IMG/VR virus record: IMGVR_UViG_3300025536_000018
Coordinates: 1 to 57,827 of that record
Reading direction: 5' to 3' (one strand)
DNA length: 57,827 nt
Source of the DNA: a virus
Position 1 is the first letter of the stretch; each line of letters starts with the position of its first letter. Shown here piece by piece: positions 1-57,827 of the stretch. A program made the translations under genes and the position numbers. The notes beneath the pieces were generated by a model, which searched no databases, was not told the origin of the DNA, and saw nothing but the letters and a program-made list of their open reading frames with translations.

Positions 1-12
1 GCTCAGCGCCCC
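1..12. repeat. Left copy of 12-bp terminal direct repeat
   Basis: GCTCAGCGCCCC is identical to the last 12 bases of the window (57816-57827). This fits either a circular assembly with a short overlap or 12-nt cohesive ends, as in lambda-type phages with GpA/Nu1 terminases. Confidence 0.75.
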
Positions 13-207
13 CGCCTGCCCCTCCACCCCTCCAAGGGGGAACCGTTGGACCGCGTAACTACTCGCAAAGCATAGCTAGACGCGGCTCCAGGCCACCACA
101 GAGAGGCTAAGCGGAAGGCATAGCTAGGGGATAGCGGGGCACATAGGCCAAGCGCTCTAGGGGCCTCTAATCGGCTCCAGGGCCTAGCCGATATCAGGCC
201 AGGCGCT

Positions 208-240
208 CTAGGCGGATCATCGGGCTAGGTGGATCATCGC
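208..240. repeat. 33-bp direct repeat, copy 1
   Basis: The 33 bases are repeated exactly at 250-282 with a 42-bp period. Each copy is itself two near-identical units of the form CTAGGYGGATCATCG, giving four iterons in 75 bp. Iterons next to a genome end resemble terminase-binding (cosB-like) or initiator-binding arrays. Confidence 0.85.
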
Positions 241-249
241 ACTAGGCGG

Positions 250-282
250 CTAGGCGGATCATCGGGCTAGGTGGATCATCGC
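250..282. repeat. 33-bp direct repeat, copy 2
   Basis: Exact second copy of 208-240, again made of two CTAGGYGGATCATCG units. A partial further unit (ACTAGGCGG) lies at 241-249 between the copies. Confidence 0.85.
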
Positions 283-379
283 CCCGGCCGCCCTGCCGAT
301 TCGCGGCCTAGCTCCAGGGGCAAGGGGCACAAAGAAAAACGCCCCGGCCATATCAGGCCAGGGCGCTAGGGTGCGACTC

Positions 380-392
380 GGAAGTTAGTTCT
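380..392. repeat. 13-bp palindrome site 1 (GGAAGTTAGTTCT)
   Basis: Member of the genome-wide GGAAGTNACTTCC family with two mismatches. It lies just beyond the 3' end of the leftmost gene, in non-coding DNA. Confidence 0.7.
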
Positions 393-398
393 ATGTGT

Positions 399-1187
399 CT
401 AGGGGTAGAGTAGCTTGACCGCCTCCAGGCCCGCCCGCTCCAGGTTCGTTAGGTCCGCCCTGCCGTCCAGGCTGGCCAGGGCCTCCCGCCATAGCTCCAG
501 GCGCTCCAGGCGTAGGGCCTCCCGTTCCTCCCGCTCCTTTGCCAGGCGGTCCCGCTCTATTGCCCGCTCCGCATCGCGTGCCGCCTCATCGGCCTTGCGC
601 TTGGCCAGGGCCGACTCCATCTCCGCAACCGTGGGAAGCTGGCCACGTTCAAAGGCCGTCCAGGCCGCCGCCGCCATGGCTTCCTTAGCCGTGAAATGCA
701 CGGGCCAGAATATCACGCGACTCGGTTCGCTATGCCCGCCGTTAAGCCACCGCTTAGCCTCAAACGAGTCCACCCGACTCCCGGATATGCAAGGCCCGTT
801 TTCATAGTAGCTATGCCGTTCCTCTGGACCCTTCAGGCGGTAGAGCTTCCAATGCGTGCCCCAACCCGAATCGCAAGACACATAGCCCCGCAATTCGCCG
901 TCAATCATCACGTCATAGCTAGAGCGCTGATAGGCGTTTATCGGCTCCGCCCGCTTCGCCAGGTCCAGGCGCGGCAACGTGGCGAGCTTCGCCTTGCCTA
1001 TGGCTTGCGCGCATTTAGGGCACGTCGCCAGGCGCGGGGAATCGAACGGCGCGGCCCGGTCATGTAAGCGCGACTCGCCGCACCACGATTCGGCCATGCC
1101 GCGCCCCGGATCATCCGCAAAGGGGTATTGATCCGGACTCCATCGCCGGAAGGCGCAAACCTTATGAACGCCGCGACTCCTGCCCAT
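399..1187 (-). CDS. Hypothetical protein with Cys-rich N-terminus and charged C-terminal helix
   Basis: 262 residues, family not recognised. The start chosen is the ATG at 1187, which shares its A with the TAA stop of the upstream gene (TAATG), a coupling seen four times in this arm; a longer frame from 1250 would overlap the neighbour more. The N-terminal third has a zinc-ribbon-like pair (a WCGES region and CPKC). The C-terminal 80 residues are rich in Arg, Glu and Ala and should form a long charged helix or coiled coil. It is the last gene of the leftward left-arm operon. Unusual base use (many GAGTC/GACTC) is shared with the whole arm. Confidence 0.75.
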   Translation of the reverse strand: MGRSRGVHKVCAFRRWSPDQYPFADDPGRGMAESWCGESRLHDRAAPFDSPRLATCPKCAQAIGKAKLATLPRLDLAKRAEPINAYQRSSYDVMIDGELRGYVSCDSGWGTHWKLYRLKGPEERHSYYENGPCISGSRVDSFEAKRWLNGGHSEPSRVIFWPVHFTAKEAMAAAAWTAFERGQLPTVAEMESALAKRKADEAARDAERAIERDRLAKEREEREALRLERLELWREALASLDGRADLTNLERAGLEAVKLLYP

Positions 1188-1639
1188 TAGACCGACTCGC
1201 CGATGATATGGGGGCCGCCCTCCAGGCCGGAATAAAGCGCCGTTTGCCACGGGATCGAATAGAAGCGGAAAGCGCCCGCCGTGCCCACGGCCTCAAATAT
1301 CGCCGCGTGCTGGCAATCGCCCGTTTCCTGATATCCGACAAGCCGGAAGCCGTGCAAGGCGGCCACCTTATCGGCCACCGGCTCCAGGCGCTTCCTATAT
1401 CGCTTGTCAGTGAGGAGTCGCACGCCGGAAGCGTGCAAATCGCCCCGCACTAGCGGCTTGTGGCGCTCCAGGGCGTCCAGGGCGGCCCGCACTTCGTCCG
1501 CCGTGGCGGCGCACCTGTTGCCGCTCCAGCCCCGCGCTAGGCGGGTGACGTGATTCAGGGCCTTGCGGAGTCCTATCACGTTCGTTTTTGTGACGTTGCC
1601 CGACTCAATCGCGGCAAGGTGACGTTGCATTGCGTTCAT
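1187..1639 (-). CDS. Hypothetical protein
   Basis: 150 residues, not recognised. ATG at 1639 follows the arm's standard leader (GCTTTCAAAGGAGCGAATC), which supplies the AGGAG ribosome binding site. The protein is basic in its first half and ends in an aromatic, mixed alpha/beta-looking stretch. The stop overlaps the next start (TAATG), so translation of the two genes is probably coupled. Soluble and cytoplasmic by composition. Confidence 0.8.
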   Translation of the reverse strand: MNAMQRHLAAIESGNVTKTNVIGLRKALNHVTRLARGWSGNRCAATADEVRAALDALERHKPLVRGDLHASGVRLLTDKRYRKRLEPVADKVAALHGFRLVGYQETGDCQHAAIFEAVGTAGAFRFYSIPWQTALYSGLEGGPHIIGESV

Positions 1640-1670
1640 TTGATTCGCTCCTTTGAAAGCGGGTTAAAGT

Positions 1671-1865
1671 TCAATTGTCGCCAGGGCGATTCGTGCCGCC
1701 GATGAACCGGCCCGCGCCGCCCTGAAGGCGAGTCGCGGCGATATCGTCCCGGCGTTGCGATTCCGCACATTCGCGCTTGATCCGGCTCCACAGTGTCGCG
1801 CCGCCGATGATAGCGGCGAAGGTGACGAGTCCGACAAGGGCGGCGATAAGGTCAGGTCCAAACAT
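1671..1865 (-). CDS. Small single-pass membrane protein
   Basis: 64 residues. Start is the ATG at 1865 preceded by GGAGTGATTCGA; an in-frame GTG three codons upstream lies inside the ribosome binding site and is less likely. Residues 4-25 form one hydrophobic helix (LIAALVGLVTFAAIIGGATL), followed by a basic cytoplasmic-looking tail. No family recognised. It is preceded by a putative promoter overlapping an operator-like palindrome at 1897-1933. Confidence 0.75.
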   Translation of the reverse strand: MFGPDLIAALVGLVTFAAIIGGATLWSRIKRECAESQRRDDIAATRLQGGAGRFIGGTNRPGDN

Positions 1866-1896
1866 TCGAATCACTCCGTTCCGTTGTTACTCACTC

Positions 1897-1933
1897 CGTA
1901 TAGCGGAGAAAGTCCTAACAGGAAGTTAATTCC
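1897..1933 (-). promoter_or_regulatory. Putative leftward promoter overlapped by palindrome site 2
   Basis: On the minus strand a -10-like TATACG (1897-1902) sits 18 bp after the palindrome GGAATTAACTTCC (1921-1933), so the palindrome covers the -35 position. The 9-mer TCCGCTATA at the -10 is repeated exactly in the promoter at 2446-2482, which has the same spacing. This argues that the pair is a real promoter plus operator class. Confidence 0.55.
1921..1933. repeat. 13-bp palindrome site 2 (GGAAGTTAATTCC)
   Basis: One mismatch in the core. It lies just upstream of the stop end of the 1926-2408 gene and at the -35 position of the putative promoter for the gene at 1671-1865. Confidence 0.8.
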
Positions 1934-2408
1934 GGCCGATTATCTCCGCCCCGGCAAGGTTGCCCTCCCGGCCGTCCGCCACCCGATAGCCCCGGATCAT
2001 AAGGAAGCCGGAGTCCACTTCATAACCAGTGACGCAACAAACGACTCCGCCGATTGCCCGCACTTCCTGCCCTACCGTGGGCACGGGTTGCTTACCGCTC
2101 CACACTGGCCAGCCGCCACGGTTCGCCAGGCGCTTGCCTTTCCACTTCGCTTTGACGTGGGGCGGGATCAAGCCGCGCCGGATATCGGCCGCCACCTTTG
2201 CCGCCCGCTCCGCTTTGACATACTCCCGCAACTTGCGAGTCGCGTTAGGGCCGTGGAAGGCGACAACGTGGCCCGTTGCCGGGTTGAACCGATAGAAGCG
2301 GGAAAGGTGCGCCGCATCGCCGCACTTGATCCACTGGCCAGGCTGGAGCTTTGCGCGGGCGCTATCGTCCAGGGTCCAGATATCAGGGGCAGGGGTAAAC
2401 TTAGCCAT
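1926..2408 (-). CDS. Hypothetical protein
   Basis: 160 residues, not recognised. ATG at 2408 follows GCTTTCAACGGAGCGACTC, the shared left-arm leader. The protein is basic in the middle (around residues 60-95) and ends with a Gly- and Val-rich beta-looking region. The last codons fall inside palindrome site 2, so stop region and operator overlap. Confidence 0.8.
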   Translation of the reverse strand: MAKFTPAPDIWTLDDSARAKLQPGQWIKCGDAAHLSRFYRFNPATGHVVAFHGPNATRKLREYVKAERAAKVAADIRRGLIPPHVKAKWKGKRLANRGGWPVWSGKQPVPTVGQEVRAIGGVVCCVTGYEVDSGFLMIRGYRVADGREGNLAGAEIIGRN

Positions 2409-2445
2409 TGTGAGTCGCTCCGTTGAAAGCGTTTCCGATAGACCT

Positions 2446-2482
2446 TCTATAGCGGATGATTCGTTAATAGGAAGTTACTTCC
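2446..2482 (-). promoter_or_regulatory. Putative leftward promoter overlapped by palindrome site 3
   Basis: Minus-strand TATAGA (-10, 2446-2451) lies 18 bp after a perfect GGAAGTAACTTCC (2470-2482), the same geometry and same TCCGCTATA word as the promoter at 1897. It would drive the gene ending at 1926. A bound protein would occlude the -35. Confidence 0.55.
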
Positions 2483-2640
2483 GCCGCCTTTCGATCATCC
2501 ACCGACTCGCGGTCCAGGTTGACATAATAGCGCCAGGCTCCGCCGCGCGACTGTTGCCGGAATAGTGCCGAATTAGCGAAGCCGCCCCGGTCATACCATT
2601 CCTTTTTAGTGATTCGCTCTTTCCGCACCTTTTGCGCCAT
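2464..2640 (-). CDS. Small basic hypothetical protein (58 aa)
   Basis: 58 residues from ATG at 2640 to TAA at 2464, with the leader ACTTTAGACGGAGTGCAAGACA in front. The sequence starts MAQKVRKERITKKEW and ends EVTSY; the final EVTS is encoded by the perfect palindrome at 2470-2482. Basic N-terminal half and aromatic centre (WRYYV). Not recognised; gene call rests on leader, start codon and position in the operon. Confidence 0.7.
   Translation of the reverse strand: MAQKVRKERITKKEWYDRGGFANSALFRQQSRGGAWRYYVNLDRESVDDRKAAEVTSY
2470..2482. repeat. 13-bp palindrome site 3 (perfect GGAAGTTACTTCC)
   Basis: Perfect copy at the 3' end of the 58-residue gene, encoding EVTS, and at the same time over the -35 position of the next promoter. 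Confidence 0.9.
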
Positions 2641-2667
2641 TGTCTTGCACTCCGTCTAAAGTGATTC

Positions 2668-2680
2668 GGAAGTTAGTTCC
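2668..2680. repeat. 13-bp palindrome site 4 (GGAAGTTAGTTCC)
   Basis: One core mismatch. It contains the TAA stop of the upstream gene (2673-2675) and lies 28 bp upstream of the next start. Confidence 0.85.
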
Positions 2681-2825
2681 GATATGCGCGGCCGTTCCGC
2701 CGCCGTTCAATCACGCCCGCCGCCTGTTTGCGGATGCGAGCGATTCGCTTGTGCTCTTCCCACGTCGCGACGTGCTGGCAATGGTTGCCGTCAAAATAGG
2801 CCGCCTCACTGTAGAGCATTTTCAT
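2673..2825 (-). CDS. Small hypothetical protein (50 aa)
   Basis: 50 residues from ATG at 2825 (GGAAGGGA just upstream; ATG at 2819 is an alternative) to a TAA inside palindrome site 4. Begins MKMLYSEAAYF; the second half is strongly basic (RRRNGRAYRN end). Its start overlaps the end of the upstream gene by 20 bp. Not recognised; could bind nucleic acid by charge alone. Confidence 0.65.
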   Translation of the reverse strand: MKMLYSEAAYFDGNHCQHVATWEEHKRIARIRKQAAGVIERRRNGRAYRN

Positions 2826-3057
2826 TCCCTTCCGTTGTCCGATGATTCGACACTAGGGCCGATTCGTTAACAACTGGTTTATAGTGGCGGCCTTGCATCC
2901 ATCCGGCGCAATAGACCGCAACCAGGGCGAAGGCGACGGCGTAGAGCAAGCAACCGCCGACTCCTTGCTTCCCCTGCCGTTTCTTCCGCTCTAGCGCTTC
3001 CTGTTGCTCCAGGGTGCGCCCCCACGGCAGAATCTCTAAGGGCTTATCGTCTTTCAT
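2806..3057 (-). CDS. Small single-pass membrane protein
   Basis: 83 residues from the ATG at 3057 (AAGG upstream), with an alternative ATG at 3087. A charged N-terminal half (GRTLEQQEALERKKRQGKQ) is followed by one hydrophobic helix near residues 42-60 (LLYAVAFALVAVYCAGW) and a short polar tail. The reading frame stays open upstream of the start, through a Cys-rich stretch (CSCGQC) to the TGA that ends the next gene, so the true N-terminus is uncertain. Confidence 0.7.
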   Translation of the reverse strand: MKDDKPLEILPWGRTLEQQEALERKKRQGKQGVGGCLLYAVAFALVAVYCAGWMQGRHYKPVVNESALVSNHRTTEGNENALQ

Positions 3058-3171
3058 GGCTTGGCCTTTCCCTTCCGTCCGGATCATGCCGCGCCCACAT
3101 TGCCCGCAAGAGCACGACTCGGCGTTCCAGGGCGTCCAGGGGCGGCCGTGGAGCCTCCAGGCGCTCCGCCC

Positions 3172-3426
3172 TCACTGTGGCCACCATTCGGGCCGCTCGC
3201 CTTCGTCCAGCCATGCCAGGCAATCGGCGGCCATGGCCACGGCGGCGGGGCCGTCATCATGTTCCGGCACGTCCGAGTCGATCAAGTCGCCCGACTCGTC
3301 ATACTCAAACCAATAGGCGCGAGTCGAACGAAGGCTAGAGCAAGGCCAGCCGCCGTTAAACAGGGCAACGCCGACTTGCGAGACTCGGACCTTGCGCGGC
3401 CCTACGGTGCTAAGGATATCAGACAT
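3172..3426 (-). CDS. Small acidic hypothetical protein
   Basis: 84 residues. ATG at 3426 overlaps the upstream TAA (TAATG); a GTG-type start at 3447 would lie deep in the neighbour and is rejected. Acidic, with a Trp-rich C-terminus (EWWPQ). After its TGA (3172-3174) the same frame continues open into the membrane-protein gene, raising the possibility of readthrough or a sequence error. Confidence 0.75.
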   Translation of the reverse strand: MSDILSTVGPRKVRVSQVGVALFNGGWPCSSLRSTRAYWFEYDESGDLIDSDVPEHDDGPAAVAMAADCLAWLDEGERPEWWPQ

Positions 3427-4055
3427 TAGGCGGATTCCTTCCCGCAAATATAGGTTTGCCCGTCATCGCCTAGATATGCCTCCAGGCTATGCCGCGACTC
3501 CACTAGGTCGCTAAGCGCTTCGCCGATTGCGCGATTCTCTTCCCGGTCATCGCTCCAGGAGTCCCGGTCCCGGAAGCCCGCGCCGTGGCCCGCCCGCTCT
3601 AGGTAAAGGTCGCTTCCCATTTGCTCCAGGGTGTAACGGTTCGCCAGGTCCAGGCCCGCTAAGGCCCCGTCAGGAACGGCCGCCAGGTGCGCCGCGATAG
3701 CCGCCAGGAACGACTCGCACTCCGCCACGGCCGCCCGAAAGGTGGAGTCGGGGCAATCGTAAATCGTGCCCGTGTCGCGAGCTTCCCGGCCTTCGCTAGT
3801 CGCTTCGTCCGACTCGCTATGCTGCAAGTCCTGAAGCAAGACGGCCAGGAACGACTCGGCCATAGGGCACGCCCGAAAGGCGGCCTTGCGCTCCCGTTCC
3901 CGGTTGTCAGTTTCCAGGGCGGCGCGGGCGGCCTTCAGGGCTTCCACCTTGTCCGCCACAATCGGCGAGTCCCGGCGCTCCAGGCCGTCCGCTTGCACGA
4001 AGCAAGGCCGATAGCCGCCGCCCGTCTTTTCGGTCCAATAGGTTTGCACGGCCAT
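3426..4055 (-). CDS. Hypothetical protein
   Basis: 209 residues, acidic, not recognised. ATG at 4055 overlaps the upstream stop (TAATG) and its own TAA overlaps the next ATG in the same way, so three genes are translationally chained here. Begins MAVQTYWTEKTGGGYRP; mostly helical by composition and Asp/Glu-rich toward the end. Confidence 0.8.
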   Translation of the reverse strand: MAVQTYWTEKTGGGYRPCFVQADGLERRDSPIVADKVEALKAARAALETDNRERERKAAFRACPMAESFLAVLLQDLQHSESDEATSEGREARDTGTIYDCPDSTFRAAVAECESFLAAIAAHLAAVPDGALAGLDLANRYTLEQMGSDLYLERAGHGAGFRDRDSWSDDREENRAIGEALSDLVESRHSLEAYLGDDGQTYICGKESA

Positions 4056-4519
4056 TATTCCGACTCCTCTTCGTCATAGTCGCCAGCCGTCAAAGCCGCC
4101 GCCAGCGTGGCCAGTTCCGCGCGTAGCTCTTCGCGTTGCTCTTCGTAAACTTCGCGAAGGTAAGCGCCGGAGTCCGACTCGATTCCCCAAAGGCCCGCGC
4201 TCCGTAGCTCCAGGATTCGGAAAGACTGGCCACCGGCCGGGATAAAGACAACCGCCCGCGCCACGACTCCGACATATTGCCAGGCGTCACCTAGCCACCT
4301 GTTATAGCGGAGCCGCGCCTTTTGCGTTTCCCGCTTCAGGTCCGCCGCCGTCTTGCCTTCGCCGATGAATCCCGCGTCTTGCGGATCAAGCGAAGGCCAA
4401 TAGCCGTCTTGCATTTGATCCGGGGCGCTTGCGTGATTGTCGCGGGGCGTTTCCATTGTCCAGGATATCGCCAGGCGTTGCGGCCGGGTGGCCGAGTCGA
4501 TCATGTTAAATTGCGTCAT
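4055..4519 (-). CDS. Hypothetical protein
   Basis: 154 residues, not recognised. ATG at 4519 follows the shared leader GCTTTAGACGGAGCGAATC, the clearest copy in the arm. Starts MTQFNMIDSATRPQRLAIS; ends in an acidic run (DYDEEESE). First gene of a TAATG-coupled trio running to 3172. Confidence 0.8.
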   Translation of the reverse strand: MTQFNMIDSATRPQRLAISWTMETPRDNHASAPDQMQDGYWPSLDPQDAGFIGEGKTAADLKRETQKARLRYNRWLGDAWQYVGVVARAVVFIPAGGQSFRILELRSAGLWGIESDSGAYLREVYEEQREELRAELATLAAALTAGDYDEEESE

Positions 4520-4572
4520 TTGATTCGCTCCGTCTAAAGCGTTGCCGATAGGCCCTTGATAGGGGGCAACCG

Positions 4573-4800
4573 TTAACAGGAAGTTACTTCCGCCGTAAAA
4601 ATATACACCGGGGCGCTAGGCTCCGTCGCGGCCAGGCCCGCCTGGTTCCACCTGTTGACTAGCTCCAGGAAGTCCAGGCGGCCGCCCGTCCGATTGCCGC
4701 CGCCTAGTTGCATGGCGACTCGCACCGGGTCCAGGCTAAGCGATTCGACGTGGCGGGAGCCGTCAGGCCGAATCGCGGTGCGGGTGTAACGGTGCGCCAT
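4573..4800 (-). CDS. Small hypothetical protein
   Basis: 75 residues, coupled by TAATG to the gene upstream. The C-terminus AEVTSC is encoded by a perfect palindrome copy (4579-4591). Gly-rich middle (LGGGNRTGGR). Not recognised. Confidence 0.75.
   Translation of the reverse strand: MAHRYTRTAIRPDGSRHVESLSLDPVRVAMQLGGGNRTGGRLDFLELVNRWNQAGLAATEPSAPVYIFTAEVTSC
4579..4591. repeat. 13-bp palindrome site 5 (perfect)
   Basis: Perfect GGAAGTTACTTCC at the 3' end of the 75-residue gene (encodes EVTS), about 60 bp upstream of the next leftward start at 4519. Confidence 0.9.
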
Positions 4801-5669
4801 TAGGCGAAGTCCGCCGCATCGCCCGCCGCGTCCAGTTCATCCCGGCCGCCATAGCGAGTCGCGTTATAGAGCTTCCAGGCCGAGTCCTTGTCCAGTTCCG
4901 CCGACTCCTTGCCGTCTTCCAGGCGGATGATTCGGCCGGTCATGGCATTGGAGTCGAACTTGAACCGATAGCGCGGGCGCGGGCCGTGCATTTGCTCCGC
5001 CACGTTTTCCAGGCGCAACCCGGAGTCGGTCCAGTCAATCGACTCGTCATCGGCCACGGCGTCCGCCATGATCGAATATTGAAAGTGCGCCGAGTCGCGG
5101 TCTCCGCTTCCCCATTTTGTCACAGTGTCGAAAGCCGCGCCGAGTCGGTTATTCTGGCGAAAGTCTCCGCTGATATACCGTTGCCCCTCCAGGCGGCGAC
5201 TCTGCCCGCGCGGGTTTGCCACGAAGGCGGCGGCATACTGGCCAAAGCCGCGCCCGCCGTAACCTTCGTGCTCCAGTTCCGCGCGGATCATGCAAATATC
5301 ATCGCCGAGTCGGGTGAAAAAGGCCAGGTAAACGGTAGGGCCGAATCCTTCGCCTTGCGACACGTCCAGCTTAGCGAAGTAAGGGCCGCCTTTTAGCTCG
5401 CCTTCGTCTTTGCCCACGTTGAGCGCGGCCGGGACAAAGCGGGTGTAAGTGCCCTTGAATTGATAGAAGGCAATCGGCTGGAACTTGCGCGCCAGGTCCA
5501 GGGCTTCCCATAGGTTCGCCACGCGGTAGCTAATCCAATGGCCGAGTCCCGCGCTTGTCAGTTGCACGGAACGGGGCGGCACGGGTGCGAGCGTTGCTAG
5601 GGCGTGCTCGCGCTCCAGCTTCGCCAGGTCCGCCGCTTGCTTGGCCTTCATTTCTTCTAGGGTCATCAT
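4800..5669 (-). CDS. Hypothetical protein, first gene of the left-arm operon
   Basis: 289 residues, not recognised. ATG at 5669 follows GCTTTAGACGGAGTGATTCGCA (ribosome binding site GGAG); a second ATG follows directly. The N-terminal 25 residues form a charged helix (LEEMKAKQAADLAKLEREHA). The rest looks like a globular mixed fold, with many aromatic residues and no Cys pair. It is the promoter-proximal gene of the leftward arm, reading from the putative promoter at 5709-5737, so it is probably expressed early and strongly. Confidence 0.8.
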   Translation of the reverse strand: MMTLEEMKAKQAADLAKLEREHALATLAPVPPRSVQLTSAGLGHWISYRVANLWEALDLARKFQPIAFYQFKGTYTRFVPAALNVGKDEGELKGGPYFAKLDVSQGEGFGPTVYLAFFTRLGDDICMIRAELEHEGYGGRGFGQYAAAFVANPRGQSRRLEGQRYISGDFRQNNRLGAAFDTVTKWGSGDRDSAHFQYSIMADAVADDESIDWTDSGLRLENVAEQMHGPRPRYRFKFDSNAMTGRIIRLEDGKESAELDKDSAWKLYNATRYGGRDELDAAGDAADFA

Positions 5670-5708
5670 TGCGAATCACTCCGTCTAAAGCGTCATTGCT
5701 ATGCGAAG

Positions 5709-5737
5709 TGATTAGCCCCGGAAGTCCTAACAATCAA
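5709..5737 (-). promoter_or_regulatory. Putative leftward promoter of the left arm
   Basis: Minus strand: -35 TTGATT (5732-5737), 17-bp spacer, -10 TAATCA (5709-5714), 40 bp before the ATG at 5669. A palindrome (5746-5758) lies 8 bp upstream of the -35, an activator-like position. Confidence 0.6.
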
Positions 5738-5745
5738 TTAAAATC

Positions 5746-5758
5746 GGAAGCAACTTCC
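5746..5758. repeat. 13-bp palindrome site 6 (GGAAGCAACTTCC)
   Basis: One core mismatch. Non-coding, immediately upstream of the -35 of the leftward promoter. Confidence 0.85.
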
Positions 5759-5830
5759 GGCCGCCGTCCAGGCGCTCCAGGCTCCAGGCTCCAGAGAATA
5801 GAATCGCGCGGCGCGCATAGGCGCGGCCGG

Positions 5831-5897
5831 GTTAACGAGTCACCCCACAAAAATGGTTAACGCGATTTTCATCATTAACGCGGCGGTAAGGTTAACG
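5831..5897. repeat. Cluster of four GTTAACG-type repeats
   Basis: GTTAACG at 5831-5837, 5856-5862 and 5891-5897, and ATTAACG at 5874-5880, all in the same orientation with spacings of 25, 18 and 17 bp. Possible operator or iteron array in the divergent control region. Confidence 0.6.
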
Positions 5898-6046
5898 CAA
5901 AACTTTTGCCCTCCGATCCAGCCGAGTCCCATTCTGGCACACCCGAATCGCCAACCCCCCTGTAGTGGTAATTCTGGAATAAAAACCAGTCCGCCCCACG
6001 GCCACGGCGCTGACGTTTGGCGGCTCTCCGAGGGTATGCGGTCTGG

Positions 6047-6075
6047 TTGACAATTTTTCCAGCCGCGTTTATACG
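6047..6075 (+). promoter_or_regulatory. Strong putative rightward early promoter
   Basis: TTGACA (6047-6052), 17-bp spacer, TATACG (6070-6075), 40 bp upstream of the GTG at 6115. Best sigma70-like match in the window; would drive the early operon. Confidence 0.75.
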
Positions 6076-6114
6076 AACCACATAACCGATTCCCACCAAG
6101 AAGGAGAAAGCCCC

Positions 6115-6402
6115 GTGGCCGACACCAATGCCACTATCACTTCCATGGCCAAGCAACTGAAGGAGGGAGAATCGGTCAGCCGATCCAAGCGTATCCCCCT
6201 GGACGAACTCGATCCCAAGAAGGTATCGAAGAAGCTGGCCTCCATGCGGAACAGCATGAACCAGATTGCGGCACGGGCGCGTGAAGCAACCGGAAGTGAC
6301 TTCCGCGTCGAGAGCGGCCAGTTCATCACCTATGACGGTGCGGCCGTTGTCCTGACCTGTGTGCTGACGTGCATGGAGGATGACGGCGAAGACGATATCT
6401 GA
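6115..6402 (+). CDS. Small early protein with acidic C-terminus
   Basis: 95 residues from a GTG at 6115 preceded by AAGGAG. First gene of the rightward early operon, directly after the strong promoter. Charged helical protein; residues 60-64 (GSDF) are encoded by palindrome site 7. The C-terminus EDDGEDDI belongs to a set of acidic tails ending in a hydrophobic residue found in several proteins here. Function unknown. Confidence 0.8.
   Translation: MADTNATITSMAKQLKEGESVSRSKRIPLDELDPKKVSKKLASMRNSMNQIAARAREATGSDFRVESGQFITYDGAAVVLTCVLTCMEDDGEDDI
6292..6304. repeat. 13-bp palindrome site 7 (GGAAGTGACTTCC)
   Basis: Perfect palindromic arms with centre G, inside the first early gene, read as GSDF. 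Confidence 0.88.
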
Positions 6403-6426
6403 CCACCAGCACCGGAGGACCAACCA

Positions 6427-6690
6427 ATGTGCATTGAAAAAGTTATGAGCTACAGCTTTGCGGGCAAGCTCTTCCCTACCGAACTCGACGCGGTGAAAGC
6501 CGCCCTCTCGGAGATCGGCACTCGCCTCATCAAGGACTACTCCACCAATCCGGTGAAGGGTCTTCTCGAACTCGGCCAGGACATCTCCGCTCTTCGCGAG
6601 CGCTTCCTTGCCCTGTCCCCCGCCCCTATTTCCACGGAAGAGGCTGAAGCAAAAGAGCCTACCACCCTTTCGGAGAAAGCCGATGGGTAG
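6427..6690 (+). CDS. Small hypothetical early protein
   Basis: 87 residues, ATG at 6427 with GGAGG eight bases upstream. Helical, Leu-rich middle (LIKDYSTNPVKGLLELGQDI) and an acidic Pro/Glu end. Its stop overlaps the next start by 8 bp. Not recognised. Confidence 0.8.
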   Translation: MCIEKVMSYSFAGKLFPTELDAVKAALSEIGTRLIKDYSTNPVKGLLELGQDISALRERFLALSPAPISTEEAEAKEPTTLSEKADG

Positions 6691-6961
6691 GGAGAGCTAC
6701 GCCGGTCTATGCGTGGGCGGCCCTCTGGCGGGCAAGTCCATCGCCTACCCTCACCAGGTCATGAAGGTCGAACAGTTCGAGCGCCCGCCGCTACGGACGG
6801 CCCTGGAACAGTCCCTCGCGGCTCCAGGTGCGATCCCCGAACCGATCACCTACAACTGGCACCACACTGGAGCGCAAGGCTTCTGGATACCGCAAGGTGA
6901 ATCGCTTCACGACGCGATCAACGCGATGGCGCTGGCTTACGCGGAGAAGTGTCATGGTTGA
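6683..6961 (+). CDS. Small hypothetical early protein
   Basis: 92 residues from the ATG at 6683, which overlaps the upstream stop and has CGGAG in front. Starts MGRESYAGLCVGGPLAGK. Moderately hydrophobic, soluble; not recognised. Confidence 0.8.
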   Translation: MGRESYAGLCVGGPLAGKSIAYPHQVMKVEQFERPPLRTALEQSLAAPGAIPEPITYNWHHTGAQGFWIPQGESLHDAINAMALAYAEKCHG

Positions 6962-7139
6962 AGGCGAGCGCCGGAAGAAGATCGCCGACGCTTACGTCAG
7001 CTTGCCGCACTACGGACAGAAGACCGAACAGTGCATCGCCTTCGTCAAGGGCACATGCCGTTGCCGCAACATCTACCACTTCCTCGATTCCGCCAAGGAC
7101 TCGAATGTCGAACGCCTCGAAAGGATGCTCTTCTCATGA
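6954..7139 (+). CDS. Small hypothetical protein with Cys triplet
   Basis: 61 residues; ATG at 6954 overlaps the upstream stop by 8 bp. Contains a CRCR cluster and an upstream Cys (QCIAFVKGTCRC), so metal binding is possible. Its stop shares bases with the next ATG (ATGA). Confidence 0.75.
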   Translation: MVEGERRKKIADAYVSLPHYGQKTEQCIAFVKGTCRCRNIYHFLDSAKDSNVERLERMLFS

Positions 7140-8350
7140 CCGACACTCTCCACCAGGAGCCGGAGCGCGACCAGTTCAAGACCGAGTCGCCGATCCGCGC
7201 CTTCACCACCTGGACCGTCCAGGGCCTCTACGCGCTCGGCAAGGGCTTCCGGCCGTCACTGGCGCACCTGGTCCCCTATCTGCACGCCATGGAGAGCAAG
7301 GAGGGCTGGCAACTGGTCCAGGTGCTCGAAGCCGGGACGCAAACGCCGAGCTTCATCTTCAGGCAAAGCCGGGTGATCCCGGATGAAGTGCTCATCGACC
7401 GATTGCGCGGCGACGATGGCTTCAAGCAGTCGATCCGCGACTTGCTCAACGATGGCGAGTCCGAGCGCGTCCACCTGACCCTATCGTGCGACACCACGGC
7501 GGCCAAAGTCAGCGTGGGCCTCCGTCAAGTGACGGGTGATATGCAATCGGCGATAGACGATTCCTGGAATGACGGGGCGTGCATGTCGCGCTCGACACTC
7601 GAAGACTTCATCGACCGGATCAACGGATACGCGGCCGAACTCGGCACGGTCGAAGAGCCGTTCGTCCGCAACCGCGAGGGATTCGAGGAAGCGGGCCGGA
7701 AGATCGACCAGGCCCGTGATATGTCGGCCGATCTGGATGGCTTCGGCGAACCAGCCGTGCCGACGCCAACCTATCCCATCATGCCGGAGATCGCCGAGAA
7801 GCCAGCCGCCCGCGCCATGGCCTCCAGGATGGACCAGCACGACTACGGCGACATGCAACCGGAAGACGAACCGCTCGGCACTCTCTACGACATGACACCC
7901 CCTGCCGAGGCAATTGGCGGTCAACCCCCTGCCGAGGCAATTGGCGATGATCCGATCAATCCGAAGCACTACGGCGGGACCGCGTGCGCGGAGATCGGCG
8001 AGCTTCTGACCGCCAACAGCTACCAGGTGCTCAAATACAACTGGCGGCTCGGCGAGAAGGACAGTCCGTGCGTCGAGATCGGCAAGAGCATCTGGTATCT
8101 CGACCGCGAGCTTGCCATGATCGCCGAAGGGCACACCTTCATCCCCGGCGATGATCGCCTGCCGGATCACACCTTCTTCGACCACCGCCTCCGGGGACGT
8201 AGCGAGCACACCGCCAAGGTCGCCCGCTCGCTCATCTCCTGGAACCGCTACGGCAACCCGGAGACCCTGAAGTTACTTCGGCGCGTGCTCCAGGGTGAAC
8301 TGGACCGGCTCGACGGTTGCAAGGATTGGGGAAGCGGGCTGGCGATATGA
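7136..8350 (+). CDS. DUF3310-containing early protein
   Basis: 404 residues; ATG at 7136 overlaps the upstream stop (ATGA). The C-terminal 130 residues carry DUF3310 features: a DPINPKHYGG start and a K-Y-x-W-R-L-G-E-K segment, a small phage domain often annotated as SaV-like or nucleotide-kinase-like, of uncertain function. The first 250 residues are not recognised. A linker holds a tandem PPAEAIG duplication caused by a 27-bp repeat (7897-7946). Palindrome site 8 lies near the 3' end, encoding KLLR. Confidence 0.75.
   Translation: MTDTLHQEPERDQFKTESPIRAFTTWTVQGLYALGKGFRPSLAHLVPYLHAMESKEGWQLVQVLEAGTQTPSFIFRQSRVIPDEVLIDRLRGDDGFKQSIRDLLNDGESERVHLTLSCDTTAAKVSVGLRQVTGDMQSAIDDSWNDGACMSRSTLEDFIDRINGYAAELGTVEEPFVRNREGFEEAGRKIDQARDMSADLDGFGEPAVPTPTYPIMPEIAEKPAARAMASRMDQHDYGDMQPEDEPLGTLYDMTPPAEAIGGQPPAEAIGDDPINPKHYGGTACAEIGELLTANSYQVLKYNWRLGEKDSPCVEIGKSIWYLDRELAMIAEGHTFIPGDDRLPDHTFFDHRLRGRSEHTAKVARSLISWNRYGNPETLKLLRRVLQGELDRLDGCKDWGSGLAI
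7897..7946 (+). repeat. Tandem duplication, 27-bp period
   Basis: A 23-base unit at 7897-7919 recurs exactly at 7924-7946 and duplicates PPAEAIG just before the DUF3310 domain. Likely a slippage product in a flexible linker. Confidence 0.85.
8268..8280. repeat. 13-bp palindrome site 8 (TGAAGTTACTTCG)
   Basis: All ten core bases kept; outer pair lost. Inside the DUF3310 gene, read as KLLR. Confidence 0.85.
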
Positions 8351-14141: not shown

Positions 14142-14444
14142 ATGGCAAAGAAGCCGAAGAAGACCTACGACATCGACAACGATCCCACGTTCGACACCAG
14201 CGAAGCGGCCAAGAGCAACGCGCTGGACCGTCAACTGATTCAACTCCTGGAGCGTATCGAACGCCTCCGGGAAGAGAAGAAGGGAATCGCCGACGACGAG
14301 AAGGATGTCTTCTCCGAAGGCAAGGCGCTTGGCTACGACGCCAAATTGATGCGCGCCATGCTGACGCTTCGGAAGATGAAGCCCGATGATCGCGCCGAAC
14401 TCGACGCGCTCATGGAAACTTATCGCCGCGCCACTGGTTTGTAA
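14142..14444 (+). CDS. GapR-like DNA-binding protein (DUF2312)
   Basis: 100 residues. The C-terminal 75 residues match the DUF2312/GapR pattern: LLERIERLREEKKGIADDEKD, then a GYDAK turn and a LTLRKMKP helix, ending ALMETYRRATGL. Caulobacter GapR is a nucleoid protein that clamps overtwisted, AT-rich DNA and stimulates topoisomerases during replication. The phage version has a short acidic N-terminal extension. It could mark the phage genome or its AT-rich right end, or compete with host GapR (inference). Shares a promoter with the ParB-like gene 35 bp downstream. Confidence 0.88.
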   Translation: MAKKPKKTYDIDNDPTFDTSEAAKSNALDRQLIQLLERIERLREEKKGIADDEKDVFSEGKALGYDAKLMRAMLTLRKMKPDDRAELDALMETYRRATGL

Positions 14445-14479: not shown

Positions 14480-15676
14480 ATGGAAAAGCTGACTCTGCCG
14501 AAGGCCAAGTTCGCCCACGAACTCACGGCCGCCCCCGTCGATCCGACCATGAAGGCCGCCGAAGCGACCAGCGCCAAGCTGTATCGCGTCCCGGTCTCCA
14601 AGATCAAGGTCATCCCCGGCTTCAACGTCCGCGTGCAGTCGCCCGACTACATCGCCCACCGTGACGCCATCCGCGCCAGCATCGCCAGCAACGGCTATGA
14701 CTCGACCAAGCCGCTCGCCGGTTACGTCGCGAAGGAAGGCGATGAGAACGTCATCTATGTCACGGACGGCCACACCCGACTGGACGCGGTGAACGAACAC
14801 AACGCCGATCCCGACACGGCCGAGAAGGATGAGATCAACACCTTGCCGGTGATGGTCCAGCCGAAGGAAGTGTCGCTCACCGACCTGACCGTCATGCTGC
14901 ACACCGCGAACAACGGTCGGCCGCTGACGCCGTTCGAGCTTGGCGTCGTCGTGAAGCGGCTCCTGGCCGAAGAAGGCGCGAAGAAGAGCGAGATCGCACA
15001 GCGGCTCGGCGTCACGTCGCGCTACCTGGACGATGTGCTCCTGCTTGCGAACGCTGATTCCAAGGTCAAGCAGCACGTCGCCAGCGGCGCGGTCTCCAGC
15101 ACCATGGCGATCCAGCTTATCCGCAAGGACGCCGACAGCGCCGCCGAGAAGATCGAAGCGGCCGTGAAGGCGACCGCTGGCACCGGCAAGAAGGCGACCA
15201 AGAAGCACGCCGGTCCCCGGATGCAGAAGATCAAGGTCGCCGTGCCGTTCACCGAAGACCAGGACATGAAGGAGATCGTGAAGGCCGCTGCCGCCGCGAT
15301 CCGCGAAGCCGTCCCGGCCGTCGAAGGCGAGGAAGACGCGAAGCTGGCTGGCGTCAGCGGCACCGTCAACCTGGTGATCGAAGTGCCCGCACCGGAGAAG
15401 CCGAAGCCCGCGAAGAAGGCTCCGGCGAAGAAGGCCGCCGCCAAGCCCGCCAAGGCCGCCAAGGCGACCGACGCGGAGCCGGAGGCGAAGCCCGCCAAGA
15501 AGGCCGCGACGAAGAAGGCCGCTGCCGCCAAGCCCGCGAAGAAGGGCAAGGCCGCCAAGGCTGACATCGGCGTCGAAGGCGCGGAAGCGGTCGGCGAGGA
15601 CGATGAAGTCGCGATCCTGCCGCCGAAGGTCGTGTCGGACGCGGATGTCCCCGACGACGAAGAAGTGGACATCTAA
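14480..15676 (+). CDS. Orphan ParB/KorB-like DNA-binding protein
   Basis: 398 residues. An N-terminal ParB/Spo0J-type domain (about residues 30-140) includes the typical VTDGHTRLDAV box near 94-104. A helix-turn-helix follows at about 166-187 (KKSEIAQRLGVTSRYLDDVL), the DNA-binding part of ParB and KorB. The C-terminal 130 residues are Lys/Ala/Pro-rich repeats (KKAPAKKAAA type), then an acidic tail ending DDEEVDI. No ParA gene was found. ParB proteins bind short inverted repeats and spread; KorB of RK2 binds scattered 13-bp palindromes and represses transcription. It is the leading candidate to bind the 39 palindromes here; one lies upstream of its own promoter. Confidence 0.85.
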   Translation: MEKLTLPKAKFAHELTAAPVDPTMKAAEATSAKLYRVPVSKIKVIPGFNVRVQSPDYIAHRDAIRASIASNGYDSTKPLAGYVAKEGDENVIYVTDGHTRLDAVNEHNADPDTAEKDEINTLPVMVQPKEVSLTDLTVMLHTANNGRPLTPFELGVVVKRLLAEEGAKKSEIAQRLGVTSRYLDDVLLLANADSKVKQHVASGAVSSTMAIQLIRKDADSAAEKIEAAVKATAGTGKKATKKHAGPRMQKIKVAVPFTEDQDMKEIVKAAAAAIREAVPAVEGEEDAKLAGVSGTVNLVIEVPAPEKPKPAKKAPAKKAAAKPAKAAKATDAEPEAKPAKKAATKKAAAAKPAKKGKAAKADIGVEGAEAVGEDDEVAILPPKVVSDADVPDDEEVDI

Positions 15677-33902: not shown

Positions 33903-34307
33903 TTAGATGTCCTCGTCTTCGTCGGCATCTTCGTCCGCGTCGGCATCTTCGTCCGCGTCGGCGTCATCGTCGTCGTCGGCTTCTTCCTTGGCAGGAGCGG
34001 CCTTCTTCGCCGGAGCCTTCTTGGCGGCGGTCTTCTTGGCAGCGGCCTTCTTCGCCGGAGCCTTGGTTTCCGTCTCGGCGTCGGCGTCGTCATCGTCTTC
34101 GATGTCGGCTTCGACCGCCGCACGGACGGCGCTTTCGTTCACCGGCTTGCGGAGCGCACCGGGAAGCGCCTTGTTGATGGACGTGATCTCGTCTTCGGTG
34201 AAGTCGGTGCCGGAACCGGCCGAGATGGTCTTGCGCTTGCCGTCACGGACAATCACCACCGACGCACCGGCCGCCACCATGAAACTGGACTTGCTCTTGG
34301 TCATCAT
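33903..34307 (-). CDS. Small head-region protein with KA-rich linker and acidic tail
   Basis: 134 residues; ATG at 34307 (second ATG at 34304) with AGGAG upstream, directly after perfect palindrome site 23. A 60-residue N-terminal domain (SFMVAAGASVVIVRDGKRK) is followed by Lys/Ala/Pro repeats and a long Asp/Glu tail ending DEDEDI. Located where FI-like head proteins lie; FI of lambda also has a repetitive charged part. Function uncertain. Confidence 0.7.
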   Translation of the reverse strand: MMTKSKSSFMVAAGASVVIVRDGKRKTISAGSGTDFTEDEITSINKALPGALRKPVNESAVRAAVEADIEDDDDADAETETKAPAKKAAAKKTAAKKAPAKKAAPAKEEADDDDDADADEDADADEDADEDEDI

Positions 34308-34315
34308 AATCTCCT

Positions 34316-34328
34316 GGAAGTTACTTCC
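34316..34328. repeat. 13-bp palindrome site 23 (perfect), before a ribosome binding site
   Basis: Perfect copy, non-coding, abutting the AGGAG of the gene at 34307. Confidence 0.9.
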
Positions 34329-34336
34329 GGAAAGGC

Positions 34337-34364
34337 AGGGCGACGATCCGAAGACCGCCGCCCT
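34337..34364 (-). terminator. Hairpin after the capsid gene, possible attenuator
   Basis: Minus strand AGGGCGGCG / CGTCGCCCT, 9 bp with one G-U and a 10-nt loop, 8 bp after the capsid stop. No T-run, so it may stabilise the capsid mRNA rather than terminate. Confidence 0.5.
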
Positions 34365-34371
34365 AGCTCAT

Positions 34372-35445
34372 TCAGGCTTCGCCGTCATGGACGACGATGT
34401 GGAAGGAATTGTCGATGTTGGTGGGGACCATGAGCGGGGCGCTTTGCGTCATGGTGTAGGTCAGCGACGGGTCTTCCTGGTCCCACATCTTCGGGAACAG
34501 CGGAAGAGCCTGGAGACCCGCGCGCTTGTCGCGGATCGCACCATAGCAGCGAACGCCACGGAGATTGTTGCCAGTGCCGACCACCGAATAGGTGCCCATG
34601 ATCGACTGTGTGACATCGTTCTCGTCTTCGTATTGCTCGTTGTAGGTGTAGATTTCCAGGCGGCCCTGCCCGTTGGCACCCTGGAGGATGCCACGGAACT
34701 CGAAGGGCTGACCCGGCGAGCCGAGAGCCGACAGCGTGGAGTCGCTGGTGCGCGCCACGTTGCCGATCTCCTGGCCCTTCAGGAGCGACTGGACCTTCTC
34801 GTCTTCGTAGAAGAGATCGAAGGCTCCCAGGCCCATCGTCAGGCGAGTGATGGGGGCACCGCTCTCCTGGAACGACAGGGTGCGGAGTTCCGCCACATCG
34901 GTCAGCGGAGCCGCCGCCGATTCGCCCCACCGGGCGGTGCCGGTCAGGATGCGGGTGAGACCGGCGTTGCGGCGGAAGTCCACCACTTGCGTCGGATAGT
35001 CCTCGCCCGTGATCGTCACGCGACCGTGGATGATCGCCATGGCGGCCATCCAGTTTTCCCGACGCTGGATGCTTTCGCGCTCTTCGGCCAGGTTCTCCGA
35101 GATCGCCGCGTTCCAGCGCGCACCGGGCGAACTGGAGCCGAGACCCGGAATCTCACCCGCGCGGCGGGTGAACTGCCGGTTGGGATCGACAATATGCTTC
35201 GGCTTCACATAGGCCGGAGCAAAGCTGAAGGTCTCGAAACCACGCGACCGCATAACGCGACCCTGGACGACAGGGCTGACGAACGGCGCGAGCTTGCGCG
35301 TCGTCTTCAGCTTGTCGAACATGATCTCGGCCGTGTCGAACTGACGGGCGCTGGTGAACCAGCCATCCAGCCAGTAGGCGGATTCGACCGGAGTGACCCG
35401 AAGGACATCCAGCATCTCCGCCGTGCCGTAGAGATCAAAAGCCAT
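34372..35445 (-). CDS. Major capsid protein, lambda gpE-type
   Basis: 357 residues, typical size for the gpE family of HK97-fold capsids. N-terminal FDLYGTAEMLDVLRV and the KTTRKLAPFVSPVVQG segment followed by a DPNRQFTRRAGE region are family features. AAGGA before the ATG. Flanked by decoration protein (upstream) and head-completion genes (downstream) as in lambda. Confidence 0.9.
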   Translation of the reverse strand: MAFDLYGTAEMLDVLRVTPVESAYWLDGWFTSARQFDTAEIMFDKLKTTRKLAPFVSPVVQGRVMRSRGFETFSFAPAYVKPKHIVDPNRQFTRRAGEIPGLGSSSPGARWNAAISENLAEERESIQRRENWMAAMAIIHGRVTITGEDYPTQVVDFRRNAGLTRILTGTARWGESAAAPLTDVAELRTLSFQESGAPITRLTMGLGAFDLFYEDEKVQSLLKGQEIGNVARTSDSTLSALGSPGQPFEFRGILQGANGQGRLEIYTYNEQYEDENDVTQSIMGTYSVVGTGNNLRGVRCYGAIRDKRAGLQALPLFPKMWDQEDPSLTYTMTQSAPLMVPTNIDNSFHIVVHDGEA

Positions 35446-35483
35446 TGAACTATTCCTTTCTTTCGATTGGCCAGGCGGCGCTC

Positions 35484-36272
35484 TTAGTAGAGCTTCTGGA
35501 CGTTAATCATGGTGCCCGCGAAGGCGGCCTTGACTTCCAGGTAGGTGGTGCCTTCCGGGAGATCGAGCGCGTCGAAGTTGGGGTGGCCGGAGATGAAGAC
35601 CGGCGTATCCACCGGGCCGTCATAGCCGCCCACGGCGTCCGTAGTGTCGAGCGCGTGGGGCAGGATGCCGTAGGGGACGCGAGCGCCACCGACTTCCGCA
35701 TCGCTGTCCGTGCCGCCCGACAGGTTCGCCCCGGAGACCGCGATGTTCGCCCCGGCTTCCGCCAGGGTGACAGCGTTGCCTGCCGTGCCCGCCGACTTCA
35801 CCGTCACGACGCCCGCACTGGACGTTGCGATCACGCCGTTACCGCTTTCGACGTTGAAGTCCATGCGGTGCGCGTTGATGAAGTTCTTCAGGTTGGTGGC
35901 CGTGTCGGTCAGGGTAGCGCCGATGGCGACTTCCCATTCGTCATCGACATCGGCCGCCGCGCGGAACGTGATGACTTCGCCGTTGATCGTCACCGTTTCA
36001 CCGGCAGTCGGAACCGCCGTCGAGAAGGTGATCGTGGCCGAAGCGTAGGCGTTCGGATTGTCCGAGTCGGCGAGAGGATTCCAGGGAACCAGGAGACCGC
36101 CGACCAGGGCGACCACCGGGAACTTGTAGGTCTCGCCACGCGCGTTCTTCTGGCCGAAGACGTGGCCTTCGGCGCAAGTGCCCTGCGTGGTCTGCCCGTT
36201 CGGCTCACCAGCCCAAAGCTGGATCGGGGTGAAGGTGCCTTCGAGATTGAGGCCACCAGCCAGTCCATCCAT
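35484..36272 (-). CDS. Putative head decoration protein with immunoglobulin-like domain
   Basis: 262 residues from the ATG at 36272, correctly spaced from AAGGAG; an ATG two codons earlier is too close. Placed between scaffold/protease and capsid, the gpD position, but longer than gpD. Residues about 77-190 are the domain also present in the tail tube (TFSTAVPTAGETVTINGE to SGANLSGGTD). The N- and C-terminal flanks would hold the capsid-binding part. Confidence 0.75.
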   Translation of the reverse strand: MDGLAGGLNLEGTFTPIQLWAGEPNGQTTQGTCAEGHVFGQKNARGETYKFPVVALVGGLLVPWNPLADSDNPNAYASATITFSTAVPTAGETVTINGEVITFRAAADVDDEWEVAIGATLTDTATNLKNFINAHRMDFNVESGNGVIATSSAGVVTVKSAGTAGNAVTLAEAGANIAVSGANLSGGTDSDAEVGGARVPYGILPHALDTTDAVGGYDGPVDTPVFISGHPNFDALDLPEGTTYLEVKAAFAGTMINVQKLY

Positions 36273-45486: not shown

Positions 45487-45829
45487 ACTTCTTTCGGATC
45501 ACGCGGGCGGCGAACTCCGGATAGACGACTTTGTAACCGCCAGGATCGAGTCGAACTAACTTCCGATATCCGGCCACGCTATCGGTCCACCATGCTTCGA
45601 CACCCGCGTTCCGCATCTCCCATATCCGGAGGAACTGTTGTGCGCTCGGCTTGCGTCCTGGAACCTTGAACTCGATATGGATGGCACCGCCGCTCACCTT
45701 CTCGGCGAACGTGTCGGGGAAGCCGTTGATCGACTTGCCTTCGACTTGCCAGAAGATGAGATCGTTCGGGCGCGCGTGGTCGTCCCGGCACTCATCCTTT
45801 ATCGCGCCTTCAGGTTGCCGCCGTCCCAT
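45467..45829 (-). CDS. VRR-NUC domain nuclease
   Basis: 120 residues from ATG at 45829. The core IHIEFKVPGRKPSAQQF has the VRR-NUC (PD-(D/E)XK) catalytic pattern with E-x-K and a conserved Gln; D/N residues upstream (NDLIFW, NGFPDTF) complete it. Such stand-alone domains in phages probably resolve branched DNA. Gene order helicase-VRR-NUC-methylase-polymerase is common in siphoviruses. Palindrome site 31 is read as KLVR. Confidence 0.85.
   Translation of the reverse strand: MGRRQPEGAIKDECRDDHARPNDLIFWQVEGKSINGFPDTFAEKVSGGAIHIEFKVPGRKPSAQQFLRIWEMRNAGVEAWWTDSVAGYRKLVRLDPGGYKVVYPEFAARVIRKKYGADAC
45552..45564. repeat. 13-bp palindrome site 31 (CGAACTAACTTCC)
   Basis: One core mismatch; in the VRR-NUC gene, read as KLVR. 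Confidence 0.72.
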
Positions 45830-46719
45830 GCCGCCATCGCCTTTGCCAGTTCGTCCAGTTCGCCTTCGAGCACTTGCATCGCGGGCTTCAGGCCCGTTCC
45901 GCCGTAGCCGGGATACTTGCGGCGGATCAAAGGCTCCGCCACGCACATCCGCTCGGCTATCGGCAGCGCGGCGTTCTCACCTGACCAGATGTTCCACATG
46001 CAATCCATGAGCGGACTGTTCCCGCGTTCCTTCGCCAGGAAGGCGAGCCGCCACGTCAGCTTCAACTCCAGGTCGGGCATGTGATCCAGCCACAGTCCCG
46101 CGCTTCGGCCGCCCACGTTCCAGTAGGTTTGCTTCAGAAGCATGGCGACGTTCGGCGTGAACAGAAGCGAGCGCCGGATGAACTCTTCGGCCAGGCTGAA
46201 GGGCGGGTTGGTCACGATGGCGTCGATGTCGCCGATCTCCCATCCCCACTTCGCCTTCGGGTGCTCTGCGAGAAAGTCCAGGCCGCCATAGCCGTAGCCA
46301 GGATACTCGCGGAGATCGGTGGCGATCACTTCAAAGCCGTGCCATTCGAGCACGCGAGCGAGGCGACCATCGCCGCACGCCGGTTCCCATATCCGCTTGA
46401 TCGGCGAGCCGTCCGGACGCTTCATCGCCTTCAGCGCGGGGATGAGGCTTTCGGTGCCGTCCACGGGCGTCGGATATAGATCGGCTGGCTTGCGCTCCCA
46501 CTTCTTGTAGGACGTGATGATCGCGTCGGCGATGCTCTGCCCCTTTGCGGTGTGCGGGATCGCTTCGATGATGTCGGAAATAACTTCCGGCTCCTTCAAG
46601 CCCTGGTCCCGCGCCGCCTGGCGGAAGCGCGGTTCATCGGTCACATCGGAAGCGAAAGGGTCCGAACAGAACTCATCCCAAAACAGGGATTCAGAGTCGG
46701 CGTCGAAGTAAAGTCTCAT
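45799..46719 (-). CDS. DNA N6-adenine methyltransferase-like protein
   Basis: 306 residues from ATG at 46719 (GGAAGG upstream). SAM-binding motif WEPACGDGRLARVL and the catalytic NPPF typical of adenine/cytosine-N4 methyltransferases. C-terminal part (MQVLEGELDELAK) may be a recognition region. Target unknown. A GANTC-like specificity would be notable given the left-arm GANTC enrichment, but nothing in the sequence shows specificity. Palindrome site 32 is read as EVIS. Confidence 0.85.
   Translation of the reverse strand: MRLYFDADSESLFWDEFCSDPFASDVTDEPRFRQAARDQGLKEPEVISDIIEAIPHTAKGQSIADAIITSYKKWERKPADLYPTPVDGTESLIPALKAMKRPDGSPIKRIWEPACGDGRLARVLEWHGFEVIATDLREYPGYGYGGLDFLAEHPKAKWGWEIGDIDAIVTNPPFSLAEEFIRRSLLFTPNVAMLLKQTYWNVGGRSAGLWLDHMPDLELKLTWRLAFLAKERGNSPLMDCMWNIWSGENAALPIAERMCVAEPLIRRKYPGYGGTGLKPAMQVLEGELDELAKAMAAWDGGNLKAR
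46576..46588. repeat. 13-bp palindrome site 32 (GGAAATAACTTCC)
   Basis: One core mismatch; in the methyltransferase gene, read as EVIS. Confidence 0.78.
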
Positions 46720-46721
46720 CG

Positions 46722-57815: not shown

Positions 57816-57827
57816 GCTCAGCGCCCC
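57816..57827. repeat. Right copy of 12-bp terminal direct repeat
   Basis: GCTCAGCGCCCC, identical to bases 1-12. Confidence 0.75.

Follow-up and report, generated by a model that had tools for sequence, protein, structure and literature searches.

In the window, as the whole analysed stretch of 57,827 nt of viral DNA is called here, the leftward operon at the left end (the arm) carries GANTC about five times more densely than the remaining genome, and this island recurs at the homologous operon of ten related phages. GANTC is the cell-cycle methylation site of CcrM in Alphaproteobacteria. With a probability of about 0.5, the arm sites are kept by selection at the DNA level as substrates of the solitary adenine methyltransferase of the host (CcrM or Dam), the early operon then bearing the m6A mark of its host.

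The phage and its cos-terminal operon

Judged by its sequence, the window is a chi-like (Casjensviridae-type) siphovirus. Its TerL is 61% identical to that of Erythrobacter phage R22L, 51% to that of Sphingomonas phage Carli and about 49% to that of chi, and its primase shows 28-55% identity to those of relatives. The Casjensviridae (Salmonella phage chi, BcepNazgul, AH2) have the same gene order, terminase, primase and arm position as the window, and probably the same kind of cos ends; however, the arm is GATC-enriched in chi and enriched in neither word in the Burkholderia phages. The 12-nt word GCTCAGCGCCCC at both ends of the window is cos-like by sequence, the Carli record begins with GGGGCGCGGAGC, which is related to it in the reverse-complement sense, and the BcepNazgul record has an annotated 12-nt cos overhang. 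Near the left terminus, the noncoding stretch 180-290 contains near-tandem CTAGG/GGATCATCG repeats.

The arm consists of small genes without known function (Table 1). Searching its proteins against Pfam and PHROGs returned two families only, both without known function, and no relatives were found in IMG/VR for two single arm proteins used as queries. Considering the terS, terL, portal direction, as in lambda, the arm end would be ejected first. Regarding the host, it is most likely an alphaproteobacterium with CcrM.

Table 1. Features of the window, with coordinates in nucleotides
Feature	Position	Strand	Remarks
cos-like terminus GCTCAGCGCCCC	1..12	.	copy repeated at right end
GANTC island, 78 sites	600..5950	.	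leftward cos-terminal operon and its upstream region
arm gene, 283 aa, basic, CPKC motif	399..1250	-	11 GANTC
arm gene, 150 aa	1187..1639	-	homologs in Carli and G041 arms; leader GGAGCGAATCAA-ATG
arm gene, 67 aa, probable single membrane segment (by eye)	1671..1874	-	homolog in G003 arm
arm gene, 160 aa, phrog_21585	1926..2408	-	leader GGAGCGACTC
arm gene, 58 aa	2464..2640	-	homologs in G003, G005 and R22L arms
arm gene, 50 aa	2673..2825	-	homologs in G003, G041, G005 and Carli arms
arm gene, 93 aa	2806..3087	-	homolog in G003 arm
arm gene, acidic, start codon uncertain	3172..3429	-	homologs in G013 and G016 arms
arm gene, 209 aa, acidic, phrog_1915	3426..4055	-	homologs in Carli arm and Lacusarx right-end early region
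arm gene, 154 aa, acidic	4055..4519	-	8 GANTC; leader GGAGCGAATCAA-ATG
arm gene, 75 aa	4573..4800	-	homolog searched, none found
first gene of leftward operon, 289 aa	4800..5669	-	13 GANTC; leader GGAGTGATTCGCA-ATG; homolog searched, none found
divergent intergenic region, presumed promoter	5670..6114	.	6 GANTC; GTTAAC-rich; island ends here
first rightward gene, DUF7609, phrog_6647	6115..6402	+	outside island; conserved arm neighbour in R22L and Carli
cos-like terminus, second copy of GCTCAGCGCCCC	57816..57827	.	match to left end
GGAARTNAYTTCC sites	2470, 4579, 6292, 23941, 26322, 27746, 31014, 34316, 36917, 46576, 48889, 50329, 57759

A separate observation concerns the 13-bp palindrome GGAARTNAYTTCC, which is present at 13 sites across the window genome (chance about 0.014). 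It occurs 4-15 times in every complete relative with a GapR-like gene (14 in G003, 12 in G005, 13 in Carli, 15 in G007), is absent from chi and is found in few or no copies in others (4 in BcepNazgul, 2 in G019). This word may be a candidate site of the ParB-like (14480-15676) or the GapR-like (14142-14444) protein of the phage.

Counts and controls in the arm

Exact counting gives 80 GANTC sites in 1-6000 and 78 in 399-6000, thus one per 72-75 bp, confirming the preliminary description, where about 75-80 sites in the first 6 kb, one per roughly 75 bp, had been claimed. Its sparse control, about one site per 330 bp, is likewise matched, as 6001-57827 holds 153 sites (one per about 340 bp) and 34001-36000 only 4. 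The island extends from about 600 bp inside the left terminus to about 5950, where the leftward and the rightward genes diverge. GANTC is the top-enriched gapped four-letter word when the arm is compared with the rest of the genome (78 versus 16.5), and GATC is depleted there (16 versus 48). For the seven further palindromes with this composition, the ratios mostly lie near 1x; only CTNAG departs from this, at 4.5x with small counts. Sites are found both in the noncoding gaps and in the genes of the arm, at 17 and 13.5 per kb, respectively. Regular spacing or pairing of sites was considered and rejected, since the spacing is close to random, being slightly even in the window.

Concerning other words, each arm has its own strong avoidance: GCTG/CTGC in the window (399-6000), ACCG/CGGT and GGCC in R22L (1-7900), and the AC dinucleotide in the contig G003 (1-5900). 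CTAG is avoided in the body, yet not in the arms. Such further word biases of the arms count against the methylation reading.

When synonymous codons were shuffled in the twelve arm genes, with protein and codon usage held fixed and 80 palindromic words ranked, 68 GANTC sites were observed where 30 were expected (z about 11), which places the word first of the 80, and the body genes were neutral (97 versus 87). The excess is present in all three frames, two of them having a near-zero expectation. It therefore survives the codon-shuffle control that had been set at the outset and, as words of like composition stay mostly near 1x, it is not the equal excess of such words that codon bias would give. 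Codon usage, amino-acid composition or base composition as the sole cause is ruled out by the shuffles together with the word and frame counts. The GANTC excess alters even the protein sequence of the arm, where Asp/Glu-Ser pairs reach 20.3 per 1000 aa versus 6.9 expected, about threefold; moreover, when a CGA or GGA codon precedes Ile, Val, Leu or Phe, the next codon is NTC in 19 of 19 cases in the window and 32 of 32 in R22L. As a shuffle z of similar size is obtained for GATC in the body genes of R22L, it is position and recurrence that carry the argument, and not z by itself. In that body (8141-49652), GATC is well over the synonymous-shuffle expectation (268 versus 149; 96 versus 49).

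The leaders of the arm genes are also involved. In half of those in the window (6 of 12), a GANTC site lies no more than 20 nt from the start, the expectation at arm density being 0.20 per leader (binomial tail 0.02). This bears out the earlier claim that some sites lie in a shared ribosome-binding leader, which takes the form GGAGYGANTC; in the gene at 3426..4055, the Shine-Dalgarno sequence is fused to GAGTC. The R22L arm (496-7535) has such a site at 13 of 14 genes (tail 2e-8), mostly as GGAGTC, a Shine-Dalgarno sequence fused to GANTC.

Recurrence, gene turnover and host methylation

R22L and R16L, whose arms are near-identical, have the island at the homologous operon, as do Carli and seven IMG/VR contigs (G003, G005, G041, G036, G013, G016 and G035). 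It also occurs on a phage contig assigned by binning to an Acetobacteraceae MAG, the genome of which encodes GcrA and a RAMA-domain protein. In the terminase tree, the island occurs in all nine testable members of the clade of the window, five members being fragments without the arm. Only G035 carries an island well outside this clade; the remaining relatives have none, G008 being borderline. The known hosts of the clade are alphaproteobacteria (Erythrobacter, Sphingomonas). In Carli, the excess is weak under codon shuffling (27 versus 22).

Meanwhile, the genes that compose the arm are not constant. Over 45 kb of body sequence, the window and G003 share 81% identity, whereas their arms, both with islands, align in patches only (about 0.57 kb), and the arms of the window and R22L have almost no genes in common. 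By these alignments, arm genes turn over almost completely among close relatives. Within the same gene families, the GANTC density averages 14.5 per kb inside islands (56 sites in 3849 bp) and 2.8 per kb elsewhere (9 sites in 3225 bp). For instance, the window gene at 399-1250 has 11 sites in 849 bp, and its homolog in Carli, which lies beyond the island of that phage, has 1 in 660 bp; the 8 sites at 4055..4519 compare with 0 in the aligned part of a weak homolog in G009 that lies outside any island. The GANTC excess follows operon position, not gene family. A source with different word use, which the preliminary description had offered as an origin of the arm, is thus insufficient, as arm genes differ among close relatives yet the island is kept, and homologs outside islands have normal density. 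Inheritance of the island together with the arm genes is weakened by the same two observations.

As for relatives with other hosts, the enterobacterial hosts presumably have Dam, and the hosts belonging to Burkholderia, Xanthomonas, Stenotrophomonas, Achromobacter and Pseudomonas are taken to be without it. The arm/body density ratio of GATC is above 1 in 11 of 11 chi-clade and JS26 records (1.26 to 2.34), the enterobacterial records being mostly one clade with near-duplicates and G050 having no known host, and all 7 records from the five genera taken to lack Dam fall below 1 (0.26 to 0.79). GATC ranks first or second of the 80 palindromes in the arms of chi, Smarc5, pEp08 and JS26 (shuffle z 4.5 to 6.3). 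In the arms of Klebsiella and Cronobacter phages, JC01 included, it is not significant under codon shuffling, and no GATC excess is seen in other early genes of the Dam-host phages. As for Dcm, no CCWGG site was seen in binned counts over the 59.6-kb genome of Salmonella phage chi. Thus, from the earlier proposal that the arm senses or titrates host methylation, the link to host methylation is indirectly supported, with GANTC in the alphaproteobacterial type, GATC in Dam-host relatives and neither without Dam; sensing or titration as such is not upheld.

Regarding the machinery, of 58 genomes sampled from the class, 44 encode a CcrM-type RAMA domain. GcrA (PF07750) and a CcrM-type N6_N4_Mtase (PF01555) were sought in ten island phages without a match, so the writer of the methylation would be that of the host; the window phage has another DNA methyltransferase, phrog_799 (45799-46797). 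The GcrA consensus YGAKTCK is not consistently enriched among island sites, accounting for a fraction of 0.55 in the window, 0.66 in Carli and 0.15-0.40 in eight other islands, nearly all at or below the body value.

Interpretation of the island

If the arm sites are indeed substrates of the host methyltransferase, selection on double-stranded DNA would maintain GANTC in the operon, and the operon that enters and is expressed first would carry a dense mark of the host type. Speculatively, an early operon marked in this way might pass as host-like to defence nucleases or silencers until the early proteins have taken effect. A close alternative to this host-like appearance is that the methylation state controls early transcription, and the data do not tell the two apart. 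The distribution of sites across the whole operon at near-random spacing fits a bulk mark better than promoter control and so favours host-like appearance, whereas the match to one transcription unit, the leader enrichment and the promoter-like repeats of Lacusarx keep transcription control in play. In Carli, GANTC density drops toward the cos end, a poor fit to protection of the first-entering DNA. Extending this reading to the group is more tentative: chi-like phages may tune their cos-terminal early operon to the methyltransferase of the host (GANTC for CcrM, GATC for Dam), so that m6A would densely mark the incoming operon in the pattern of the host, to be read by host defence or transcription machinery.

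It is rather unlikely, though to be taken seriously, that the island is a methylation-state switch, where an m6A reader from host or phage (GcrA-like, SeqA-like or other) turns early transcription on or off according to full, hemi- or no methylation, for example off after replication. The island covers a single transcription unit as far as its divergent promoter, and the R22L leaders exceed the arm-level frequency of GANTC. In addition, the unrelated Sphingobium phage Lacusarx carries, at 121-130 kb, a promoter-like element, CCAGAAGAAAAG..CCTTGACGAATC-N5-GASTC, in about ten copies before its small right-end genes, with GANTC avoided in other sampled genes (17 versus 41); its arm was rejected as a further island, since the coding part is neutral and the sites are concentrated in the promoter-like gaps. 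In Caulobacter and relatives, CcrM and GcrA control individual GANTC promoters (PMC3667746, PMC7987155), GcrA prefers methylated GANTC and ctrAP1 coverage differs between hemi- and fully methylated states (PMC3667746). These promoters resemble the arm in the word, the presumed methyltransferase and a possible link to transcription. However, they have single sites, and regulation calls for sites in promoters, not the dozens found here through coding sequence; the phages also lack GcrA and its consensus is inconsistently enriched.

An improbable explanation is a shared gene pool, in which arm genes circulate among alphaproteobacterial phages with an inherited word bias unrelated to methylation. 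Several arm genes are common to the window, Carli, G041 and G003, arms differ from the body in further words and codons, and G035 provides a single island well outside the clade. Nevertheless, the window and R22L arms hardly share genes, homologs outside islands lack the excess, other word biases vary from arm to arm with GANTC common to all, and the enterobacterial relatives show the corresponding Dam word. It is very improbable that the sites act as a titration decoy, occupying the CcrM, Dam or readers of the host and disturbing its cell cycle: the known role of CcrM in the cell cycle and the high local density would agree with it, but about 80 sites per phage genome face thousands on the host chromosome (3,900 in Brevundimonas subvibrioides, PMC7987155), and confinement to one operon, with a body neutral for GANTC, would not be needed. 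Hardly to be credited is an RNA-level motif, in which some factor of host or phage would bind or spare GANUC in the early mRNA, because, despite the confinement to one transcription unit and the fusion to Shine-Dalgarno sequences, the complementary GAGTC and GACTC are about equally enriched on the sense strand, the pattern of a double-stranded DNA palindrome, and the change to GATC among Dam-host phages would have to be fortuitous.

Compared with known systems, the pac site of phage P1 is a GATC cluster and thus likewise gathers sites for a solitary host-type methyltransferase, but it is a short packaging site and not an operon of 5-8 kb. The first-step-transfer region of T5 is likewise a terminal block of small early genes, which enters first; its DNA showed no enrichment when checked for GATC, nor did the unrelated Caulobacter phage KcrB have a GANTC island, and the feature is therefore not general to phages. 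Pelagiphage genomes are also shaped with respect to GANTC (PMC9516812), by depletion across the genome as opposed to enrichment in one operon. A literature search of incomplete coverage found GANTC depletion in phages and no report of operon-wide, host-matched enrichment.

Among phages, methyltransferase or restriction sites are known to be either avoided or employed in small numbers within short regulatory elements. If the reading of the arm sites as host methyltransferase substrates is true, an operon-wide enrichment that tracks the solitary methyltransferase of the host would be the opposite of this, and an epigenetic mark of the host would be built into the coding sequence of an early viral operon. 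The methylation type of the host would then be predictable from the phage sequence.
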